Assembly (NCBI RefSeq): GCF_025399795.1
Contig: NZ_JAODTZ010000034.1
Coordinates: forward strand, 1 to 64,000
DNA length: 64,000 bases
Origin: Streptomyces rhizosphaerihabitans
GTDB lineage: Bacteria; Actinomycetota; Actinomycetes; Streptomycetales; Streptomycetaceae
Reading direction: 5' to 3'
The notes under the pieces were generated by a model, which worked only from the letters and a program-made list of their open reading frames with translations, did no database searches and was not told where the DNA came from. Made by a program: the position numbers and the translations under genes. This document shows positions 307 through 11,942 of this stretch, in pieces. The stretch's first letter is position 1, and each line of letters begins with the position of its first letter.

Positions 307-1047
307 CTACAGCCTGAAGGAGAGCTCCAACTCGTCGCCCGGTAGGTGGAATTCCTCCAGGGCCAAGGGCTTGTCTGCGTCCGTGAGTGTCACGCGTAGG
401 ACGTGGAGGAGCGGGACTCCCTCCGGGAGTCGGAGAGCCTGGGCCTGGTCGGGTAGGGGCATGCGAGTGCGGACGTACTCCGTGAAGTGGAGTTCGTGGC
501 CCAGGTCGGCGAGCGCGGTGTAGAGCTCCGGGGCCGGGGGTGGGGCCTCGTCCTCGTACTTGGTGTCGATGAGTACGGAGAACGGGACGTACGTCCGGTG
601 GAGTTGGCGCAGGCGGCCTTGGTCTGCTGTCTGTAGTGCGTCGTACGTGAACATCGGCTCGCCTGGCGGGATGCGGAGTAGGTCCGCCAGGGCCATCGGG
701 GCGTCGGTGCGGGTGGCTACGGACGGTTCGGCGTCGGTCCAGCGGATTCCGTCGGCCTCGACGTATCGGGCCTCGGGAGTCCGGCGTACGCCGCGCGGGC
801 GCGTGAGGCTAGGGCGGCCGTGGGGGGAGCGGGCGAAGGTGCCGCGGCCCATGATGGCCTCGACGAGACCTGACGCCCTTAGTTCCGTGAGCCCTTGACG
901 CACTGTGGGGCGCGTCACGCCGAACTGTTTCGCCAACGCCTCTTCTGATGGGAGCGGTTGGCCGGCCGGGAACGTGCCGTTCAGGATGCCTTCGCGCAGG
1001 TAGTCGGCGATCTGCCGGTACTTCGGCTGCGTGTTCTTCGGCGGCAT
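307..1047 (-). CDS. GntR-family (HutC-type) repressor of the element, KorSA-like
   Basis: A 246-residue regulator. The N-terminal winged helix-turn-helix covers about residues 5-75 and includes YRQIADYLREGI, LPSEEALAKQFGVTRPTVRQ and GRGTF; the rest fits a UTRA ligand-binding domain typical of HutC-subfamily GntR proteins. I chose the ATG at 1047 because GGAGGG lies 6 bases upstream; a longer frame from 1146 lacks this and would run through repeats that look regulatory. In pSAM2 the equivalent protein KorSA represses the excision/replication activator. Here it is divergent from the transfer operon, and two palindromes lie in the shared control region. The true ligand is unknown. Confidence 0.85.
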   Translation of the reverse strand: MPPKNTQPKYRQIADYLREGILNGTFPAGQPLPSEEALAKQFGVTRPTVRQGLTELRASGLVEAIMGRGTFARSPHGRPSLTRPRGVRRTPEARYVEADGIRWTDAEPSVATRTDAPMALADLLRIPPGEPMFTYDALQTADQGRLRQLHRTYVPFSVLIDTKYEDEAPPPAPELYTALADLGHELHFTEYVRTRMPLPDQAQALRLPEGVPLLHVLRVTLTDADKPLALEEFHLPGDELELSFRL

Positions 1048-1087
1048 GTGGGCCCTCCGTGGCCGTGGCCTCTTCGGCTGTTCATCG

Positions 1088-1121
1088 TCGTGGACAGCTT
1101 GCCCACGATCGTGGACAGCTT
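1088..1121. promoter_or_regulatory. Direct and inverted repeats in the regulator's 5' region
   Basis: TCGTGGACAGCTT occurs at 1088-1100 and again at 1109-1121, a 21-bp (two-turn) spacing, and the perfect palindrome CCACGATCGTGG lies between at 1103-1114. With the ATG at 1047 these are upstream, non-coding bases of the GntR gene. They could bind a second regulator or form part of the repressor's own promoter. Confidence 0.45.
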
Positions 1122-1140
1122 CCCTCATCGCCAGACCTGT

Positions 1141-1165
1141 TGACAACCCGTACTACGGGTTGTCA
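1141..1165. promoter_or_regulatory. Putative operator O1 overlapping a -35 element
   Basis: A perfect 25-bp palindrome: TGACAACCCGTA (1141-1152), central C, TACGGGTTGTCA (1154-1165). A consensus -35 TTGACA (1140-1145) lies inside it for rightward transcription, with a weak CACTCT at 1164-1169 as -10. The GT-N3-AC core resembles HutC/GntR operators. Repressor bound here would block the transfer operon promoter. Confidence 0.65.
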
Positions 1166-1177
1166 CTCTGGAGCAGG

Positions 1178-1194
1178 CACCCGTACTACGGGTG
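1178..1194. promoter_or_regulatory. Putative operator O2
   Basis: CACCCGTA, C, TACGGGTG: a perfect 17-bp palindrome with the same CCCGTACTACGGG core as O1. Its centre is 33 bp (about three helical turns) from that of O1, so two dimers would sit on the same DNA face. It falls where transcription from the TTGACA promoter should begin. Confidence 0.6.
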
Positions 1195-1202
1195 GTCTAG
1201 CA

Positions 1203-1225
1203 ACCCGAAGGGGCGTCCTTCGGGT
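1203..1225 (+). promoter_or_regulatory. Leader stem-loop of the transfer operon
   Basis: ACCCGAAGG (1203-1211) and CCTTCGGGT (1217-1225) form a perfect 9-bp stem with a 5-base loop, ten bases ahead of the AAGGAG ribosome binding site at 1235-1240. It lies in the presumed 5' untranslated region and could stabilise the mRNA or limit translation. Confidence 0.4.
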
Positions 1226-1249
1226 GCCAGAGATAAGGAGATCCGAACA

Positions 1250-1597
1250 GTGGCAAGCCTTCCGATAGACACCGCGAAGTTCACGGGGATCATCTGCGCC
1301 GTACCCCCGGCTCCGCGGGTTGCCAACCGTGAGACCGGTCAGCTCCGCGTTGACCGTGAGACCGGCAAGACCATGTACCAGGTCGGCCTTTGCCTGATGG
1401 CAGGGGCGTCGGCGGACGTCGTGAACGTGAGCGTGGTCGGTGAGCCGGCCGGAGTGCAGCTCGGCATGCCGGTGGCCGTGCGGGACCTGGTCGCCACGCC
1501 GTGGGAGAACGACGGGCGGCACGGCGTCGCGTTCCGCGCCGCGGAGATCCGGCCTCTGAACACTCCCGCTCCGGCGGGCAAGGGGGCCGGACAGTGA
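1250..1597 (+). CDS. Small element protein, probably the SCO3933-type regulator that precedes the transfer gene
   Basis: 115 residues from a GTG start with AAGGAG nine bases upstream. It contains a short repeated stretch (VANRETGQLRVDRETGK) and a predicted beta-rich fold; no catalytic motif is visible. Proteins of this size directly before the FtsK-like gene of Streptomyces integrative elements are commonly named SCO3933-family regulatory proteins; I assign that from memory of position and sequence style. It is the first gene of the rightward operon, and its stop overlaps the next ATG (ATGA), so the two are translationally coupled. Its molecular role is not known. Confidence 0.65.
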   Translation: MASLPIDTAKFTGIICAVPPAPRVANRETGQLRVDRETGKTMYQVGLCLMAGASADVVNVSVVGEPAGVQLGMPVAVRDLVATPWENDGRHGVAFRAAEIRPLNTPAPAGKGAGQ

Positions 1598-2916
1598 TGA
1601 AGCTGGCCTCCACCACTTCGGCCGGTGCGACCTGGCCGAGTTGGGTTCTGGTGGTGGCCGCAGTGCTGGTGTCGGGCCTGCTGATCGCGGGCCCGGCCCT
1701 GCGCCGCCGCTACCCCGTGGCCTGGTGGCTCTTATTAGGGTTCCCGGCCACAGCGTTCCGGGTCGTGCGGACCTGGCGGCCCCTGATGGCCGGGTGCGGT
1801 CTCGCCGTGAGCCGTCGACCGGCGCTGATGGTCGTGTCCGGGCTCGTCGGCAACGGGGCGCCTCCGCCGCAGCCGCGTGTACCTCGTCGCGGTCTCATAC
1901 GCCCGACCTTCGGGGGCTTCGCGGTGCTGGTGCGGCTTCTGCCGGGGCAGGTACCGAAGGACTTCGTCAAGGCCGCGCCTGCCATGGGGGAGAGCTGGCA
2001 GGTGCACACGGTGCGGGTGACCTCCTGGAAGCCGGGGGTTGTGCGGATCGTCGTGTCGGCGTCCGACCCGTTGGCTGTTCCTCGGGCGCCGAAGCAACGG
2101 GGGCCCGGCCATTTGCTCCGGGTGAGCGTGGGCGCGCTGGAGACGGGAGCTGCGTGGGTGGTCGACCTGCGGCGTGTGCCGCACTGGTTGATCGTGGGGG
2201 CCACCCGCTCCGGAAAGTCGACGCTGATCAACGCACTCGTGGCGGGGCTCGCTCCGCAACCCGTCGCCCTGGTCGGGATCGACTGCAAGGGCGGCATGGA
2301 ACTGTCCCTCTATGAACCGCGGTTGTCCGCTCTGGCGACTAACCGAGAGCAAGCCGTTCGGCTGCTGACTGCCCTCGTAGACCTGACCCTCGACCGCATG
2401 ACCGTCTGCCGGAAGGCCCGGGTCCGCAACATCTGGGGACTCCCGGAGAAGGAATGCCCGGTCCCCATCGTCGTGATCGTCGACGAGATCGCGGAACTGT
2501 TCCTCGTGGCGAGTCGGAACGAGAAGGACGAAGCGCAAGCGGCAGGCACGGCGCTCATTCGAATCGCACAACTCGGCGCGGCCCTCGGGGTGTTCCTCGT
2601 CGTCGCGGGCCAACGTGTCGGCTCCGACCTCGGGCCCGGTGTCACCGCCCTGCGGGCCCAGCTTGGCGGCCGGGTGTGCCACCGCGTGGCCGACCCCGGT
2701 ACGGCAGAGATGGCGCTCGGCGATCTCAATCCTGACGCACTCAAGGCAGCACAGGCCATCGCCCCGGAACAGGCCGGCACGGCAGTCCTCGCCTCCGGCG
2801 ACGGCTGGGAACGCGCCCGTTCGCACCTGATCACCGAGGCGGAGGCGGAAGCGGTCGCCGCCGAGTACGCGCACCTGACTCCCGTCCTGTCCGAACTGCA
2901 CGTCGAAGCGCCGTGA
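1597..2916 (+). CDS. FtsK/SpoIIIE-type DNA transfer protein (TraSA/TraB-like)
   Basis: 439 residues; the ATG at 1597 overlaps the upstream TGA. Two N-terminal hydrophobic segments (about residues 13-30 and 38-55) anchor it in the membrane. The motor domain has Walker A G201-ATRSGKST and Walker B IVVIVDEIAEL around D296-E297. Such proteins move double-stranded element DNA between hyphae through the septum-like FtsK mechanism, without a relaxase. It is shorter than host FtsK and lacks an obvious gamma domain, as expected for element proteins. It leads the group of spread and replication genes that follow. Confidence 0.9.
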   Translation: MKLASTTSAGATWPSWVLVVAAVLVSGLLIAGPALRRRYPVAWWLLLGFPATAFRVVRTWRPLMAGCGLAVSRRPALMVVSGLVGNGAPPPQPRVPRRGLIRPTFGGFAVLVRLLPGQVPKDFVKAAPAMGESWQVHTVRVTSWKPGVVRIVVSASDPLAVPRAPKQRGPGHLLRVSVGALETGAAWVVDLRRVPHWLIVGATRSGKSTLINALVAGLAPQPVALVGIDCKGGMELSLYEPRLSALATNREQAVRLLTALVDLTLDRMTVCRKARVRNIWGLPEKECPVPIVVIVDEIAELFLVASRNEKDEAQAAGTALIRIAQLGAALGVFLVVAGQRVGSDLGPGVTALRAQLGGRVCHRVADPGTAEMALGDLNPDALKAAQAIAPEQAGTAVLASGDGWERARSHLITEAEAEAVAAEYAHLTPVLSELHVEAP

Positions 2917-3446: not shown

Positions 3447-3811
3447 TCGCCCGAATGACGGGCTCCCAACGGGGCGCGAAGTCGCCAAACCCGACCCCGT
3501 CAGGAACCCACTCCATCCGCCACATGAGCAGTGAAAGGAGTACTCACACTTTGTCCAACGCGCATCATTCGCGCAAATCTCCGCTGTCCGACTGTGAACT
3601 GAGGAGGAAAGACTCCGAGAGCTCGACCTGCGCCGGACCCGAACACGTCGTCCTCGTCGGGCTCGACGGCACGGAGCAGCATCTGTGCCCGGCGCACGCT
3701 GCCGCGTTCTGGCTCACGGACCCGACACTTCGGTTCAGTGCCAAGACCCGGCCGGAGGGGATCTCGGCCGTGATGCGGCAGGCGTTCGGCGGGGGCGGTG
3801 GCCGACGATGA
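3443..3811 (+). CDS. Small Cys/His-containing element protein
   Basis: 122 residues from GTG 3443, preceded by GAGGAG at 3432-3437. A second possible start is TTG 3551 with GAAAGGAG upstream, giving 86 residues; the conserved-looking part begins after that point, so either may be used. The C-terminal half has C-x3-EH and LCPAHAAAFW, an arrangement of Cys and His that could bind zinc. It overlaps the initiator gene by ATGA, indicating coupling to replication. Function unknown. Confidence 0.6.
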   Translation: MIARMTGSQRGAKSPNPTPSGTHSIRHMSSERSTHTLSNAHHSRKSPLSDCELRRKDSESSTCAGPEHVVLVGLDGTEQHLCPAHAAAFWLTDPTLRFSAKTRPEGISAVMRQAFGGGGGRR

Positions 3812-5178
3812 CCACGACCTTGCCGGAGAGCGCTGCCGCCTTGGTCGCCAGGGCTTCGGCCCCCGGGTTCGCTGCCTGGCGCCGCAACATCGTCCGCCTC
3901 GGCGGCTGCACCAACCCGATTCACCTGGTCGGCGGGGCAATTATCTTCGACGCGACCACGGGTGAGGCCCTGCTGTCGCACGGGGCGGATACCTACGGCG
4001 GTCGCTTGCTGACCGCCTGCGGCAACCGGCGGGCAACGGTGTGTCCGACCTGCTCGGGCCTGTACCGGGCGGACACGTACCAACTCGTCCGCGCTGGCCT
4101 CGTGGGAGGCAAGAACGTCACGGAGGCGGTGAGCGGATATCCGCGAGTGTTCGCCACGCTCACCGCTCCCGGCTTCGGCCCGGTTCACACCCGTCGTGAA
4201 CACGGCGGCCGCGTACGTGCCTGCCGTCCCCGCCGCGTTGGGGACTGTTGCCCGCACGGCGCTCCGATCGGTTGCCACGAGCGGCATGCGGCGGATGATC
4301 CCCGCCTCGGCGAACCGCTGTGCCCGCGCTGCTACGACTACGCCGGCGCCGTGCTGTGGCAGGCGTACGCCGGTCGGCTCTGGCACCGGTTCGGGTTGGA
4401 ACTGCGGCGCGACGTCGCGCGGCGGGCCGGTCTGTCGCGCTCGGAGTTCGGGGAAGTCGCCCGGCTGTCGTACGCGAAAGTCGCCGAGTACCAGCGGCGG
4501 GGCCTGGTCCACTTCCATGCGGTGATCCGCCTCGACGGACCGGACGGACCCGACTCGTCGCCGCCGAGTTGGGCGACTGCGCCACTCCTGGTGGACTCGG
4601 TACCGGCCGTGGTCGGTCGGGTGAGGCTGACCGCCCTGGGTGCGGACGTCATCGGGCCGCGGGTGCTGCGGTTCGGCACACAGGTCGACGTTCGGTCGGT
4701 CACCCCGTACGAACGGGGATCGGGCGCGCGGCTGGCCTCCGCTGCTGCCGTGGCGGGATACATCGCCAAGTACGCCACGAAGGGGGCGGAGTCGGCTGGC
4801 GCGGTGGACGGGCGGATTCACGACGCGCGGGAGATGGTCATGCTGCCCGTACGCGCACACGTGCTGCGCATGATCGGCACGTGCTGGTGGCTCGGTGGCC
4901 TGCCGGAGTTCGCGTCACTGGGGCTGCGACGCTGGGCGCACATGCTTGGCTACGGCGGCCACTTCTCCAGCAAGTCGCGTCGCTATTCGACCACGCTGAC
5001 CGCACTCCGGCAGGCCCGTGCCGACCATCGCGCCGAGCAACAACGGGCCTTCCTCGGCCTGGCCGACCGCCTGACGGTCACGGTCGGCGAGTGGCGCTAC
5101 GCAGGGCGCGGCTACTCACCGGAAGCGGCGCTCCTGGCCGCCTCGGTACGGGAGGGCGGTGTCTCTCATGGCGCGTGA
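3808..5178 (+). CDS. repSA: Replication initiator, RepSA-like
   Basis: 456 residues from an ATG overlapping the preceding stop. Features fit rolling-circle initiators of pSAM2-type elements: a CxxC/zinc-like region (ACGNRRATVCPTCSGLY), a metal-binding HxH motif GLVHFHAVIRL at H235-H237, and a downstream Tyr-containing motif GYIAKYATKG around Y318/Y322 that should carry the nicking tyrosine. It would nick the element origin after excision, producing single-stranded intermediates. It is followed immediately by xis and int, an operon order known from pSAM2 (repSA-xis-int), so replication and excision are probably switched on together. Confidence 0.85.
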   Translation: MTTTLPESAAALVARASAPGFAAWRRNIVRLGGCTNPIHLVGGAIIFDATTGEALLSHGADTYGGRLLTACGNRRATVCPTCSGLYRADTYQLVRAGLVGGKNVTEAVSGYPRVFATLTAPGFGPVHTRREHGGRVRACRPRRVGDCCPHGAPIGCHERHAADDPRLGEPLCPRCYDYAGAVLWQAYAGRLWHRFGLELRRDVARRAGLSRSEFGEVARLSYAKVAEYQRRGLVHFHAVIRLDGPDGPDSSPPSWATAPLLVDSVPAVVGRVRLTALGADVIGPRVLRFGTQVDVRSVTPYERGSGARLASAAAVAGYIAKYATKGAESAGAVDGRIHDAREMVMLPVRAHVLRMIGTCWWLGGLPEFASLGLRRWAHMLGYGGHFSSKSRRYSTTLTALRQARADHRAEQQRAFLGLADRLTVTVGEWRYAGRGYSPEAALLAASVREGGVSHGA

Positions 5179-5380
5179 CACCCGTGCGAAGTCGGCCGAA
5201 CTCCTCACCGTGCGGCAGGTGCTCGACGAGCTGGGCGGCATCTCCCGGCGCACCTTCTACCGCTGGCGGGAGCTCCGTATCGCCCCGGCCTGTATACGGC
5301 TGCCGAACGGTGAGCTGCGGGTCCGGCGCGAGGTGCTCAACGACTGGCTGGAGGAGCGGGCGGAGGGGGCGGCATCGTGA
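5168..5380 (+). CDS. xis: Excisionase, helix-turn-helix
   Basis: 70 residues. The ATG at 5168 overlaps the end of repSA; a GTG at 5159 is possible but too close to GGAGGG at 5151-5156. LTVRQVLDELGGISRRTFYRWREL is a MerR/Xis-type helix-turn-helix, followed by LPNGELRVRREVLNDWLEE, the usual wing. It would bind the attachment arms and direct the integrase towards excision. Its TGA overlaps the integrase GTG. Confidence 0.85.
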   Translation: MARDTRAKSAELLTVRQVLDELGGISRRTFYRWRELRIAPACIRLPNGELRVRREVLNDWLEERAEGAAS

Positions 5381-6765
5381 AGTCGTACAAGGTCGTCATC
5401 TGGAAGCTGAGCATCAACCGCTCCGCGAAGAAACCGACGTACCTCGTCCGCTGGTCCGTGGACGGCGAGCCGTTCCACGAGTCGCACAAGACGAAGGCGC
5501 TCGCTGACCGCTTTCGGGTCAAGCTCCTTCGCGCTGCCGACAAGGGCGAACCGTTCGACACCGTCACCGGTCTGCCCGACTCGCTTCGCGGGGGAAAGGC
5601 GGCGCTGTCGTTCCTCGACCTGGCGCGGAAGTACGTGGAAGCGCGCTGGGCCGAAGTGTCCGCGAAGCAACGCGACAGCATGACCGATGCTTTGGCGACC
5701 GTCGTTCCCCTCCTCGTCAAACCGGGGCGGGGGCGGCCCGCTCCCGAGGTGCTGCGGCGGGCGCTGCGCTCGTATGTCCTGCCGGTCAACCGCCGAGAGC
5801 GGGAGCGGCCGGAGGAGATCGTCGCGGCCGTGCGGTGGATCGACAAGGCATCGCTCCCCGTGGGGGAGTTGCAAGAGATCGCCCGTGTTCACGGTTTGAT
5901 CGACGGATTGGGGCGGAAGCTGGACGGCAAGCCTGCTGCCACCCAGACGTACCGCCGTCGGCGGGCGGTGGTCTTCAACGCACTGGAATTCGCAGTGGAG
6001 TTGGAATACCTCACGTCCAACCCGATGAGCCGGGTGCGCCGCAAACGGGGCAAGCGGGCGGTGCAGGAGGTTGACCGTCGGGTGGTGGTCAACCCTCGGC
6101 AGGCTCGGGAGCTGCTGACCGCGCTCACCTACGTGGGTGGTTACGAGCGGGCGAGCGGCCGGCGGCTCCGGGCGTTCTTCGGATGCCTGTACTACGCGGC
6201 CATGCGGCCGGGGGAGGCTCTCGGGCTTCGCCGCTCCGACTGCACACTTCCGGCGTCCGGCTGGGGGCGTATCGAGCTGGCGGAGACACGCCCCACTGCT
6301 GGAAAGGCGTGGACGGACTCTGGGGAGGCACACGATCGGCGCGGCCTGAAGCAGCGGGCTCACGGGGAAGTGCGCATCGTGCCGATTCCGCCTCCACTGG
6401 TGCGGCTGCTCCGGGAGCACCTGACGGAGTTCGGTACGGCCACCGACGGCCGGCTCTTCTGCAGCGAGCGGGGCAACGTGATCGCGGCCTCATCGTACTC
6501 CCGGGCGTGGAAACAGGCTCGGGAACTGGCATTCGTCCCGCACCAAGTGTCCTCGGCGCTGGCCTTCCGCCCGTACGACCTCCGTCACGCGGGCGTCTCC
6601 CAGTGGCTCAACTCCGGAGTGCCTGCGCCGGAGGTCGCTGCTCGCGCGGGTCACTCGGTGGATGTCCTGCTCAAGATCTACGCCAAGTGCATCGACGGCC
6701 AGGAGCAGGAGATGAACGACCGGATCTTGCGCGGGTTGGGAGAGGGGGAGGACAAGACCGAGTAA
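5377..6765 (+). CDS. int: Tyrosine site-specific integrase
   Basis: 462 residues from GTG 5377 overlapping the xis stop. The N-terminal part (to about 170) is arm-binding/SAM-like. The catalytic domain shows Arg I in YYAAMR277PGEALGLR, the box II region RPYDLR403H404AGVS with Tyr in place of the first His of HxxR, GH426 and the nucleophile Y435 in KIYAK. It recombines the element with the 3' end of tRNA-Arg, whose gene lies 1 kb downstream. Length and motifs match AICE integrases. The motif set is complete, so it is probably active. Confidence 0.93.
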   Translation: MKSYKVVIWKLSINRSAKKPTYLVRWSVDGEPFHESHKTKALADRFRVKLLRAADKGEPFDTVTGLPDSLRGGKAALSFLDLARKYVEARWAEVSAKQRDSMTDALATVVPLLVKPGRGRPAPEVLRRALRSYVLPVNRRERERPEEIVAAVRWIDKASLPVGELQEIARVHGLIDGLGRKLDGKPAATQTYRRRRAVVFNALEFAVELEYLTSNPMSRVRRKRGKRAVQEVDRRVVVNPRQARELLTALTYVGGYERASGRRLRAFFGCLYYAAMRPGEALGLRRSDCTLPASGWGRIELAETRPTAGKAWTDSGEAHDRRGLKQRAHGEVRIVPIPPPLVRLLREHLTEFGTATDGRLFCSERGNVIAASSYSRAWKQARELAFVPHQVSSALAFRPYDLRHAGVSQWLNSGVPAPEVAARAGHSVDVLLKIYAKCIDGQEQEMNDRILRGLGEGEDKTE

Positions 6766-6790
6766 ACCAGGCATTGCCGGAATGCGATCA

Positions 6791-6816
6791 TGAGCCTCGG
6801 AGCAATCCGAGGCTCA
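6791..6816. terminator. Terminator between int and the convergent cargo gene
   Basis: TGAGCCTCGG (6791-6800) and CCGAGGCTCA (6807-6816) form a perfect 10-bp stem with a 6-base loop. It lies 25 bases after the int stop and 22 bases before the end of the convergent gene, so it can serve both directions. Confidence 0.75.
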
Positions 6817-6837
6817 GTCGTATGAGCACGTTCAGAA

Positions 6838-7581
6838 TCAGTCGAACTCGGGTGGAGTGATGAAGCTGGCTGCGGCTCCGTCGTACCAACTCCATTCCCA
6901 TCGGTGGTCAAAGCCGTTGACTGGAGTTCCGGAGGTGGCGAAGGAGCCGCCCTCCGGCACGACCGGTATCACGCGGCGCTTCCCCGCCTGGGATGTCTCG
7001 ATGTTTAGCCACCAGGAGCACCGCACGGTGTCGGCACGACCAGTGACGAGAAGCGATTGGGTCTCTCCGGGCGAGAGGTTGATGACGTGATCGTCGAAGT
7101 AGGGGCGGCTGCCTGTGCGGACCGGCCGTTCAGCCAAGCTCTCGTACGTAGCGCTCCATGCCGAGGGTTGCTCCTCGTCAAGCAGGAAGTCCAGAACGAG
7201 GGCCTCTGCCGCACCTGCTGGGGGGTACCTGACCCAAGCAGCGCTTAAAGGCGCGCCTTCCTGCTCCTTGTGAACCGTGATGTTGGTGATGGTGAGTGGC
7301 TGCTCTGAGCGGTTCTCTATGAGGACTTTCGCGTTGGTGACTTTGAAGTCCGCAGCACCGCGATGATGGAGCAGCCAGTACATCGGCCAATACGAGCGCT
7401 TGTCCTCAGGTACGTGCGACGGCAGGGCGTCCGCTGTCGGTAGGGCGAGCTCCCAAGCCTTCGGCACGATGATCTCTCCCGTTACCGCAAGGGGATCCCC
7501 GCGCTTCAGCCAACGCCTAACCCCCACTACGAGCCCGATGAGCGCTGCAACAACCAAGGGAGCGATGAGATTGTCGATCAC
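6838..7581 (-). CDS. Membrane-anchored hypothetical protein, cargo of the element
   Basis: 247 residues from GTG 7581, chosen because AAGGAG lies six bases upstream; longer frames from 7680 lack this. Residues about 4-21 (NLIAPLVVAALIGLVVGVRRWL) form one membrane segment followed by a soluble domain of about 220 residues, probably beta-rich, with many Trp. No family is recognised. It lies between int and the attachment site, opposite in direction to the element operon, and its base composition is unlike its surroundings: I counted 36/60 G+C at 6841-6900 and 32/60 at 7261-7320, far below the rest of the window. That supports recent acquisition as cargo; a defence or surface role is only a guess. 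Confidence 0.7.
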   Translation of the reverse strand: MIDNLIAPLVVAALIGLVVGVRRWLKRGDPLAVTGEIIVPKAWELALPTADALPSHVPEDKRSYWPMYWLLHHRGAADFKVTNAKVLIENRSEQPLTITNITVHKEQEGAPLSAAWVRYPPAGAAEALVLDFLLDEEQPSAWSATYESLAERPVRTGSRPYFDDHVINLSPGETQSLLVTGRADTVRCSWWLNIETSQAGKRRVIPVVPEGGSFATSGTPVNGFDHRWEWSWYDGAAASFITPPEFD

Positions 7582-7745
7582 GAGGGGCTCCTTGCAGGCT
7601 CGGTTCTCGGATTCGACCATCCCATCAGAGCGTGGTCGAGGAGACATCATCTGACCAGGCGAAAGACCTGCCAAGATCATTACGTCGCCATTACGTGATC
7701 ACAGGCAAACGGCTGCTTTTGGCGGCGTCTGGCTGCACATACGCG

Positions 7746-7785
7746 AAGACCCCGGCCTCAGCGTTTCCGCTGGTGACGGGGTCTT
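7746..7785 (-). terminator. Stem-loop downstream of tRNA-Arg
   Basis: AAGACCCCG (7746-7754) pairs with CGGGGTCTT (7777-7785), with an inner CAGCG/CGCTG stem. Read on the minus strand it follows the tRNA 3' end by about 18 bases. If the crossover is inside the tRNA gene, this terminator belongs to the element and replaces the chromosomal one. Confidence 0.65.
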
Positions 7786-7803
7786 TGGGCACCTCATAAG
7801 GGG

Positions 7804-7875
7804 TGCCCCCGGCAGGATTCGAACCTGCGCACACGGCTCCGGAGGCCGTTGCTCTATCCCCTGAGCTACGGGGGC
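7804..7875 (-). tRNA. tRNA-Arg, anticodon CCG
   Basis: On the minus strand a complete cloverleaf can be drawn: acceptor GCCCCCG/CGGGGGC, D arm GCTC/GAGC, anticodon stem ACGGC/GCCGT with loop CTCCGGA (anticodon CCG), and T arm GCAGG-TTCGAAT-CCTGC. The total is 72 bases with discriminator A; CCA is not encoded. The gene remains intact after integration, as is usual when an element restores the tRNA 3' end. Confidence 0.95.
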
Positions 7876-8096: not shown

Positions 8097-8540
8097 GTGC
8101 CAGGCGTGTCCGGTCGGGTGCTTGTTGTGGACGACAACAAGGTCATCCGGCAGCTGATCAGGGTCAACCTCGAGCTGGAGGGTCTCGAGGTCGTGACCGC
8201 GGCTGACGGTGCCGAGTGTCTGGACGTCGTCCATCAGGTTCGGCCCGATGTCGTCACCCTCGATGTCGTGATGCCTCGGCTCGACGGCCTGCGCACCGCT
8301 GCTCGGCTGCGTGCCGATCCCCGGACGCGGAACCTGCCCCTCGCCATTGTCAGCGCCTGCACGCAGTACGAGGTCGAGAGCGGGCTGGACGTCGGTGTCG
8401 ACGCCTTTCTCGCCAAGCCCTTCGAGCCCTCTGAACTCGTGCGACTCGTAAGGCAGTTGATGGAGCGGCGTGAGGTAAGCGATGGTGTCGTGGGCGGCGC
8501 CGTCGAGGAGACCGAGCGGGCGGGGCGAACCGGTCACTGA
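8097..8540 (+). CDS. Single-domain response regulator
   Basis: 147 residues consisting almost only of a receiver domain: VLVVDDN acidic pocket, phosphorylatable D56 in VVTLDVVMPRLDG, and the conserved Lys in FLAKPFEP. There is no DNA-binding output domain, so it acts through protein contact or as a phosphate carrier. GTG 8097 was chosen because a TACTCT -10-like hexamer ends six bases before it, suggesting a leaderless transcript; GTG 8106 is also possible. No histidine kinase lies beside it. It marks the first host gene next to the element. Confidence 0.85.
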   Translation: MPGVSGRVLVVDDNKVIRQLIRVNLELEGLEVVTAADGAECLDVVHQVRPDVVTLDVVMPRLDGLRTAARLRADPRTRNLPLAIVSACTQYEVESGLDVGVDAFLAKPFEPSELVRLVRQLMERREVSDGVVGGAVEETERAGRTGH

Positions 8541-10550: not shown

Positions 10551-11942
10551 ATGAGTCGTTCCGCACATCCCGCCGGGCCCCGTCACGCCGACGTCTTCGC
10601 CGAGGGCCACTACAGCGCCCCGCCCGCCGACCTCAACGCCCTCGACCCGAAGGTGTGGTCGCACACCGTCAGCCGTACGGAAGACGGTGTCGTGAGCGTC
10701 GGCGGGCGCGAAGTCACCGCGCTGGCCGAGGAGTTCGGCACGCCCGCGTACTTTCTCGACGAGACCGACTTCCGGGAGCGGGCGCGTGCCTGGCGCACCG
10801 CGTTCGGGCACGACGCCGATGTCTTCTACGCGGGCAAGGCCTTCCTGTCGCGCGCCGTCGTGCGGTGGCTGTACGAGGAGGGGCTCAACCTGGACGTGTG
10901 TTCCGGGGGCGAGCTGACGACGGCCCTCTCCGCCGGGATGCCCGCAGACCGCATCGCCTTCCATGGCAACAACAAGTCCGAGAACGAGATCCGTACGGCT
11001 GTCGAGGCCGGGGTCGGGCGGATCGTGCTCGACTCCTTCCAGGAGATCGTGCGAGTGGCCCACATCGCGCAGTCCCTGGGCAAGCGGCAGAGGGTGCAGA
11101 TCCGGGTGACGGTGGGCGTCGAGGCGCACACGCACGAGTTCATCGCGACGGCCCACGAGGACCAGAAGTTCGGCATCGCGCTCGCCGACGGGCAGGCCGC
11201 CGAGGCCGTACGGCGGGCGCTCGCGCTCGACGCGCTCGAACTCGTCGGGATCCACTCGCACATCGGGTCCCAGATCTTCGACATGGCCGGCTTCGAGGTC
11301 GCCGCCCGACGTGTGGTCGCGCTGCTGGCCGCGGTGCGGGACGAGCACGGGGTCGAGCTGCCCGAGATCGACCTCGGCGGCGGGCTCGGCATCGCGTACA
11401 CCAGCGACGACGACCCCCGCGAACCGCACGAGATCGCCAAGGCGCTGGGCGAGATCGTCACGAGGGAGTGCGAGGCCGCCAAGCTGCGCACGCCGCGGAT
11501 CTCCGTGGAGCCGGGGCGTGCCATCGTGGGCCCCACCGCGTTCACGCTGTACGAGGTCGGCACCATCAAGCCGCTCGACGGGCTGCGGACGTACGTCTCG
11601 GTGGACGGCGGCATGTCAGACAACATCCGGACCGCGCTGTACGACGCCGAGTACAGCGTCTCCCTCGTCTCGCGCACCTCCGACGCCGAGCCGATGCTCG
11701 TGCGCGTCGTCGGCAAGCACTGCGAGAGCGGTGACATCGTCGTGAAGGACGCCTTCCTGCCCGCCGACCTGGCCCCGGGCGACCTCATCGCGGTCCCGGC
11801 CACCGGCGCGTACTGCCGGTCCATGGCCAGCAACTACAACCACGCGCTGCGCCCGCCGGTCGTCGCCGTGAAGGACGGCGCGGCACGGGTGATCGTCCGC
11901 CGCGAGACGGAGGAGGACCTCCTGCGCCTCGATGTCGGGTGA
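10551..11942 (+). CDS. lysA: Diaminopimelate decarboxylase
   Basis: 463 residues. Decarboxylates meso-diaminopimelate to lysine, the last step of the pathway. The PLP-binding Lys is K96 in FYAGKAF; the phosphate-binding [16 protein letters not shown] and [10 protein letters not shown] motifs and the active-site Cys C391 in GKHCESGD are present. Length is slightly above the E. coli enzyme, with an N-terminal extension of about 30 residues. It starts 45 bases after nrtL and is probably cotranscribed with it. No stem-loop terminator follows; instead there are tandem repeats. Confidence 0.95.

Follow-up and report, generated by a model that had tools for sequence, protein, structure and literature searches.

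A swappable low-GC cargo gene for a putative membrane-anchored protein between the integrase gene and tRNA-Arg(CCG) of a pSAM2-like AICE

The element and its cargo gene

The window, i.e. the whole stretch of 64,000 nt of Streptomyces rhizosphaerihabitans DNA which was analyzed, contains at its left side an element whose genes are arranged as kor, pra, tra, rep, xis and int, next to a tRNA gene (Table 1). The small ORF at the xis position presumably encodes an excisionase; this label follows from its position, by analogy with pSAM2. Since the window corresponds to bases 1-64000 and the contig begins at window base 1, the left end of the element is missing, and the first 400 bases of the window, when used as a query, revealed only partial similarities elsewhere in the same genome. 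The order Kor-Pra-Tra-Rep-Xis-Int is that of pSAM2-like AICEs (PMC8584621, available part). The tRNA-Arg(CCG) gene is probably the integration target of the AICE, and the conserved region next to it could harbour the integrase arm sites.

Table 1. Genes and other features of the element and its attachment region (window coordinates)
Feature	Position	Strand	Remarks
GntR-UTRA regulator, KorSA-like	307..1146	-	Pfam; analogy with SCO3932/KorSA of PMC8584621 (available part)
SCO3933 (Pra)-family regulator	1031..1597	+	NF051478, 1.1e-30
FtsK-like transfer protein (TraSA-like)	1501..2916	+	PF01580, 8.5e-30
RepSA-type replication initiator	3685..5178	+	PF20199, 3.8e-153
Excisionase-like small protein	5159..5380	+	labelled by position
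Tyrosine integrase	5377..6765	+	PF00589, 1e-11
Hairpin between convergent int and cargo gene	6782..6823	.	candidate bidirectional terminator, no T run
Cargo gene	6838..7581	-	247 aa; N-terminal single TM (residues ~2-21), RRWLKR, then domain at residues ~75-230
Promoter-like site TTGGCA-17-GATGAT, weak	7646..7674	-	9/12 consensus match only; upstream of cargo gene
Attachment-side region	7665..7801	.	similar whether a copy is empty or filled; contains ATTACGT repeats and, close to the tRNA, an inverted repeat; putative integrase arm sites
tRNA-Arg(CCG)	7802..7875	-	putative integration target

Inside this Kor-Pra-Tra-Rep-Int element, at its tRNA site, lies the cargo gene, of which a sister copy is present in a second genome (G270). 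The gene is antiparallel to int; the int stop codon is 72 bp away on one side and the tRNA-Arg(CCG) 3' end approximately 220 bp away on the other. Its orientation opposite to the element operon had already been claimed in a preliminary description of this DNA. Its GC content of 62.1% contrasts with a mean of 69.8% (sliding stretches of 744 bp, steps of 50 bp), and of 1229 such stretches that do not overlap the gene region only 0.7% have an equally low value. The lower GC content noted in the preliminary description is thus real, although the two 60-base counts given there (60% and 53%) make the difference look slightly larger than it is.

The 247-aa reading frame with a GTG start was confirmed at this position, and an in-frame ATG at 7680 would lead to an alternative product of 280 aa. 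GTG is the likely start and the 280-aa version less likely, since AAGGAG is located just upstream of GTG, an ATG occupies the corresponding position in the homologue L016, and the comparison of start regions shows that the upstream similarity ends in the homologues L017 and L029. However, some similarity persists over about 17 residues upstream of GTG among the window gene, L028 and L016, which are the members closest to one another, so that the GTG start is likely rather than certain. In agreement with the single membrane helix and the Trp-rich domain of the preliminary description, the deduced protein has one hydrophobic helix, at its N-terminus, and 11 Trp among its 247 residues (counted by eye). 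In all ten pairs among the five homologous ORFs of 245-247 aa, dN/dS was 0.13-0.20, and none of these full-length members contains an internal stop. Thus, 6838-7581 is a real gene under purifying selection, beyond chance.

Upstream of the gene one promoter-like site was found, compared to 0.3 expected in shuffled sequences. The hairpin between the convergent genes has a z of -4.7 in the window (none of 200 shuffles was as good) and of -2.4 in L028 (3 of 200), where the stem is retained with one compensated pair, T-A to C-G. It sits within the segment which, according to the alignment of empty and filled copies described below, is missing from the empty ones. A pattern scan for terminators found none.

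Approximately 38-45 bp of the tRNA-Arg 3' end (the att core) recurs on three other contigs of the same genome (C74, C61 and C100), and a search of this genome revealed no link from these att cores to the left end of the element. Contig C74 carries an integrase of the same type which is truncated (91% identity) and has another gene in its slot. In the corresponding stretch (L045, C74:22000-34150) the integrase copy spans 5106-6359 and the slot gene 6446-7324, the latter encoding a membrane-protein-like product of 292 aa with no family. This second, truncated copy means that the genome carries two slot variants. On C61 (L046, C61:36000-50584) an att remnant at 11524-11663 is adjoined by a minus-strand gene (10645-11394) for a 249-aa protein without Pfam family, and a 56% identical integrase piece is found further out; apparently this is a decayed array. 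Accretion at tRNA-Arg is described in the available parts of PMC9513070 and PMC3218068.

A two-state slot at the attachment side of int

With the integrase as a query (E<=1e-150, best four candidates scored per genome), we found at least 40 places in at least 39 of 392 genomes of the same genus. The 40 intervals between int and the attachment site comprise those of the window, L028, L045 and 37 further stretches, with no row dropped; for L045, L102 and L104 the reading relied solely on the C-terminal portion of the int match. The interval is either 108-155 bp long (empty, 26 of 40) or 598-1491 bp long (filled, 14 of 40), and no length between these ranges occurs among the 40. Ten of the 26 empty copies (L105-L114) have integrases which are only 52-55% identical; those with 77-100% identity (n=30) are divided into 16 empty and 14 filled ones. 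The alignment of empty and filled copies places the insert roughly from the int stop codon up to the conserved region on the attachment side, and the GC content of the insert is below that of its own int in all 14 filled slots. Several of the integrases are split or have internal stops, so that not all surveyed elements need be active.

A tblastn search with the window protein was positive for two of the 40 stretches with an integrase match (window and L028), both of which are filled; the gene was not found there at the same place without the element. The int-to-tRNA-Arg(CCG) interval is a two-state slot which is variously occupied across element copies, and the assignment of 6838-7581 to the swappable cargo of pSAM2-like AICEs is well supported. 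The preliminary description, which had placed a membrane-anchored AICE cargo protein between int and the attachment site and had proposed such a survey of related elements, is borne out in this respect.

To describe the occupants, one ORF per slot, picked by length and third-position GC, was scanned; L080 was left out, and the L028 protein entered the scan solely through the alignment A3 (see below). Above the curated Pfam cut-offs, Mrr_cat was found in the slots of L089 and L099, SduA_C in L104, RAMA in L083 and L096, and an OGG-like domain (PF21790) in L086 (1507-2247, plus strand) and L100 (1374-2186, plus strand). As raw counts from this slot alone, restriction, Shedu or RAMA domains are present in 5 of 14 occupants, or in 7 of 14 if the OGG-like ones are included; OGG-like and RAMA proteins need not mean defence, and the former may act in defence or in repair. 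For the slot ORFs of L045, L084, L091 and L102 there was no Pfam family at E<=0.01. Including the window gene and its L028 homologue, 6 of the 14 occupants are without family, with L080 outside the scan. Some slots are roomy enough for a second small gene.

PADLOC agreed with Pfam for L083, L089, L099 and L104 and gave nothing for L045, L046, L084, L086, L091 and the window gene, in a set that excluded L096, L100 and L102. However, 4 of 10 control ORFs of the window (eight beside the element and two core) matched as well at E<=0.01. Because PADLOC was this permissive, PADLOC matches as sole evidence were rejected and the assignment to defence types rests on the Pfam matches. The integrase-flanking hot spot for defence or host-interaction cargo that the preliminary description assumed is supported as a variable slot with some restriction or Shedu-type genes; the link of the window gene to defence is one of association only. 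According to the available part of PMC11706625, diDNase genes are found in AICEs and near defence systems.

Some further observations were made on individual proteins. The small anchored slot proteins of L084 and L102 were compared with each other, and no kinship was found. Relatives of the catalytic domain of the Mrr-type protein of L099 are widespread, being present in at least 65 of 296 genomes. Beside the tRNA gene, the window ORF 8103-8540 (plus strand) matches a PADLOC SduA model at 1.3e-6. Its sequence is response-regulator-like, and this match, one of those in the control set above, illustrates how a false positive can arise, perhaps through a receiver domain in the model.

Relatives and predicted topology of the cargo protein

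The close family of the cargo protein comprises five members: the window protein, L028 (G270, 84%), L016 (82%), L017 (73%) and L029 (G203, 64%). Besides the window, at least two close members are present in the 392 same-genus genomes (best seven candidates scored per genome). A pattern scan of genome contigs gave two close members, and no further one was found among 394 genomes around G203, which are partly the same genomes (best six candidates per genome). Since only the best few candidates were scored per genome, further copies may have been missed. The cargo family is rare, and no relative was found by tblastn in phage and plasmid records, nor was there any in the viral contigs searched.

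Four of the five members are carried by AICEs. The window and L028 share element and site. L017 and L029 belong to different AICEs, which likewise encode homologues of Kor, Pra, Tra and Rep, and their position there is not that of a slot beside int. The AICE of G471, the integrase of which is 37% identical, carries the same cargo family. L016 is not in a recognisable AICE: homologues of the AICE genes of the window are absent from the 26.6 kb that were read of its 36.8-kb contig, and a search for RNA families (such as a tRNA remnant) nearby gave only a chance match below the cut-off.

In the AICE of G203, RTasHEPN and RT_UG22 genes are located approximately 0.7-2.7 kb from the cargo homologue. 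They correspond to L029 5690-7740 (minus strand), where PADLOC detects a UG22 reverse transcriptase and its HEPN partner at 3.9e-149 and 1.9e-43. Five neighbours of the L017 copy had no PADLOC match at E<=0.01. At the left end of the G270 AICE, L028 702-2816 (minus strand) encodes a NACHT protein (PF05729, 3.8e-8) with apparent membrane segments.

The window protein has no family in Pfam (only a sub-threshold Ig_GlcNase match, E 0.21), no NCBIfam match at E<=1 and no matching PADLOC model at E<=0.1, and a profile search of the PDB gave nothing credible (best E 0.01). Single-sequence searches, by contrast, matched the C-terminal part of larger proteins with E down to 1.2e-8 and 1.5e-9. The homologous stretch, residues ~75-230, is the C-terminal domain of proteins with an HTH_31 (PF13560) domain and a TM helix, with 20-29% identity. 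Of six larger homologues scanned with Pfam, four have HTH_31, and L004 and L011 have no Pfam family; by eye, most of the other larger homologues have a similar N-terminus. Thus, the statement of the preliminary description that the domain belongs to no recognised family holds for the three family collections but not for distant homology; as far as searched, no named housekeeping family includes the homologous domain. A profile from an alignment of 18 sequences including distant relatives (A3) matched in at least 177 of 296 related genomes, in any architecture (best ten candidates per genome). Ig_GlcNase matches 4 of the 18 profile members weakly (best E 0.0027), a faint indication of an Ig-like beta-sandwich. 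Of the profile search and structure prediction proposed in the preliminary description, the former yielded these matches; two AlphaFold2 runs with three sequences gave models too poor to use (pLDDT 42 and 39, with mostly strands at low confidence).

For the analysis of topology, 49 loci drawn from the best matches were reduced to 41 distinct distant relatives (8 repeats), and L015, L133, L135 and L136, which were mis-parsed or cut, were left out of the count. The N-terminal flank of the TM helix is the more positive one in all 37 parsed distant relatives, and their domains contain 2-4 cysteines, with four in 33 of 37. In all five close members, the charge is 0 at the N-flank and +3 at the C-flank, and there is one cysteine; by eye, the longer start would leave the N-flank of the window protein non-positive. 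The window protein matches no HTH family, and its TM helix begins at the N-terminus. By the positive-inside rule, these flank charges suggest that the domain faces outwards in the regulators and inwards in the cargo family. From the charge bias and the cysteine count, the domain of the cargo protein is predicted to be cytosolic (N-out/C-in), and the protein is likely a membrane-tethered, cytosolic, HTH-less form of the sensor domain of such a regulator. We infer both the topology and the direction of recruitment from sequence comparison.

Four distant homologues (L004 1399-2400, L011 490-2040, L033 1372-2394 and L036 1408-2331) combine the homologous domain with the N-in charge pattern and have no obvious HTH; L004 and L011 were scanned with Pfam.

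Possible roles and comparison with known systems

Slot, topology and homology can be combined into one picture. AICE copies fill the slot between int and tRNA-Arg(CCG) with different low-GC genes, some of them of the restriction or defence type. The cargo protein would be a short reverse signal-anchor protein (N-out, C-in) which keeps its domain close to the membrane on the cytosolic side. This domain is kin to the C-terminal part, predicted to face outwards, of one-component regulators of the HTH_31-TM type in the host, with the HTH gone and one cysteine left. The most likely function of the protein would be that of a membrane-tethered sensor or blocker which guards cells bearing the element against phages or rival mobile DNA. 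The proposed protection of the cell against phage or rival elements is based on analogy to slot-mates and neighbours only: some genes in the same slot elsewhere are of the phage-defence type, so that the window gene may act likewise. For the joint reading as swappable AICE cargo with an inward-facing, regulator-derived domain and a role in defence or exclusion, the arguments on both sides appear evenly balanced to us. A more specific version is tentative: a single-gene defence family in an interchangeable AICE defence slot, in which the outside sensor domain of a host regulator was made cytosolic and became a membrane-tethered detector of phage or mobile DNA.

Alternatively, the gene could be a passenger which helps the host otherwise, for example in stress or at the envelope, and is in the slot by chance. 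AICE cargo is indeed functionally mixed and includes restriction and abortive-infection genes (PMC9513070, available part), and the occupants without family mentioned above fit such a gene. However, the restriction, Shedu, RAMA and OGG-like domains of other occupants and the DRT near one homologue make a mere passenger somewhat unlikely. The protein could also serve the element selfishly, by acting at the membrane of the recipient to keep related AICEs or plasmids from entering or becoming established, with no role against phage. A single membrane-anchored protein, borne by AICEs in most of its family, would suit this purpose, and the same genome contains several att copies and another element of this type, now truncated, which suggest competition for the tRNA-Arg site. 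Yet that second element did settle on C74, the slot is empty in most copies, and the presence of the family in the G471 AICE with its distant integrase argues against element-specific immunity; we therefore regard pure exclusion as unlikely. Equally doubtful is a regulatory cargo, i.e. a sensor-domain-only relative which modulates host HTH_31-TM regulators as decoy, heterodimer or ligand sink and thus alters development or antibiotic production. It would agree with the kinship between the cargo domain and the C-terminal domains of such regulators and with the available part of PMC8584621, according to which the AICE regulator SCO3932 can reach host regulation, but the domain is predicted to lie across the membrane from its host counterparts, its cysteines differ, and the identity is low. 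Finally, although much AICE cargo is pseudogenised (PMC9513070, available part), a spurious or decaying ORF is contradicted by the selection result and is highly improbable.

The preferred reading, swappable cargo with a possible protective role, is of interest for several reasons. The slot marks a fixed place, in elements of a common family, from which candidate defence genes can be read off, and with 6 of 14 occupants without family it offers ready-made candidates for tests. The window gene adds a case in which a sensor domain apparently switched the side of the membrane as mobile cargo. If its role in defence is true, one-component sensors of actinomycetes would be linked to immunity. No description of the slot or of the protein family was found in the literature searched.

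Among known systems, Shedu SduA (L104) and Mrr-type restriction endonucleases (L089, L099) occupy the same slot in sister elements, and the window protein is unrelated to SduA or Mrr in Pfam or PADLOC. The AICE cargo of PMC9513070 is likewise variable and shows accretion at tRNA-Arg; in our case there is one defined position, at the attachment side of int, and no such slot was found in the available part of that paper. Like pSAM2-like AICEs, the element lies next to a tRNA gene and has its genes in the order kor, pra, tra, rep, xis and int, but it has an extra cargo gene between int and att, which is absent from 26 of 40 copies, and has lost its left end. With the HTH_31-TM proteins of actinomycetes, for which no family name was found, the cargo protein shares residues ~75-230. 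It differs from them by the absence of the HTH, a short N-terminal anchor with reversed flank charge, and one cysteine instead of mostly four.
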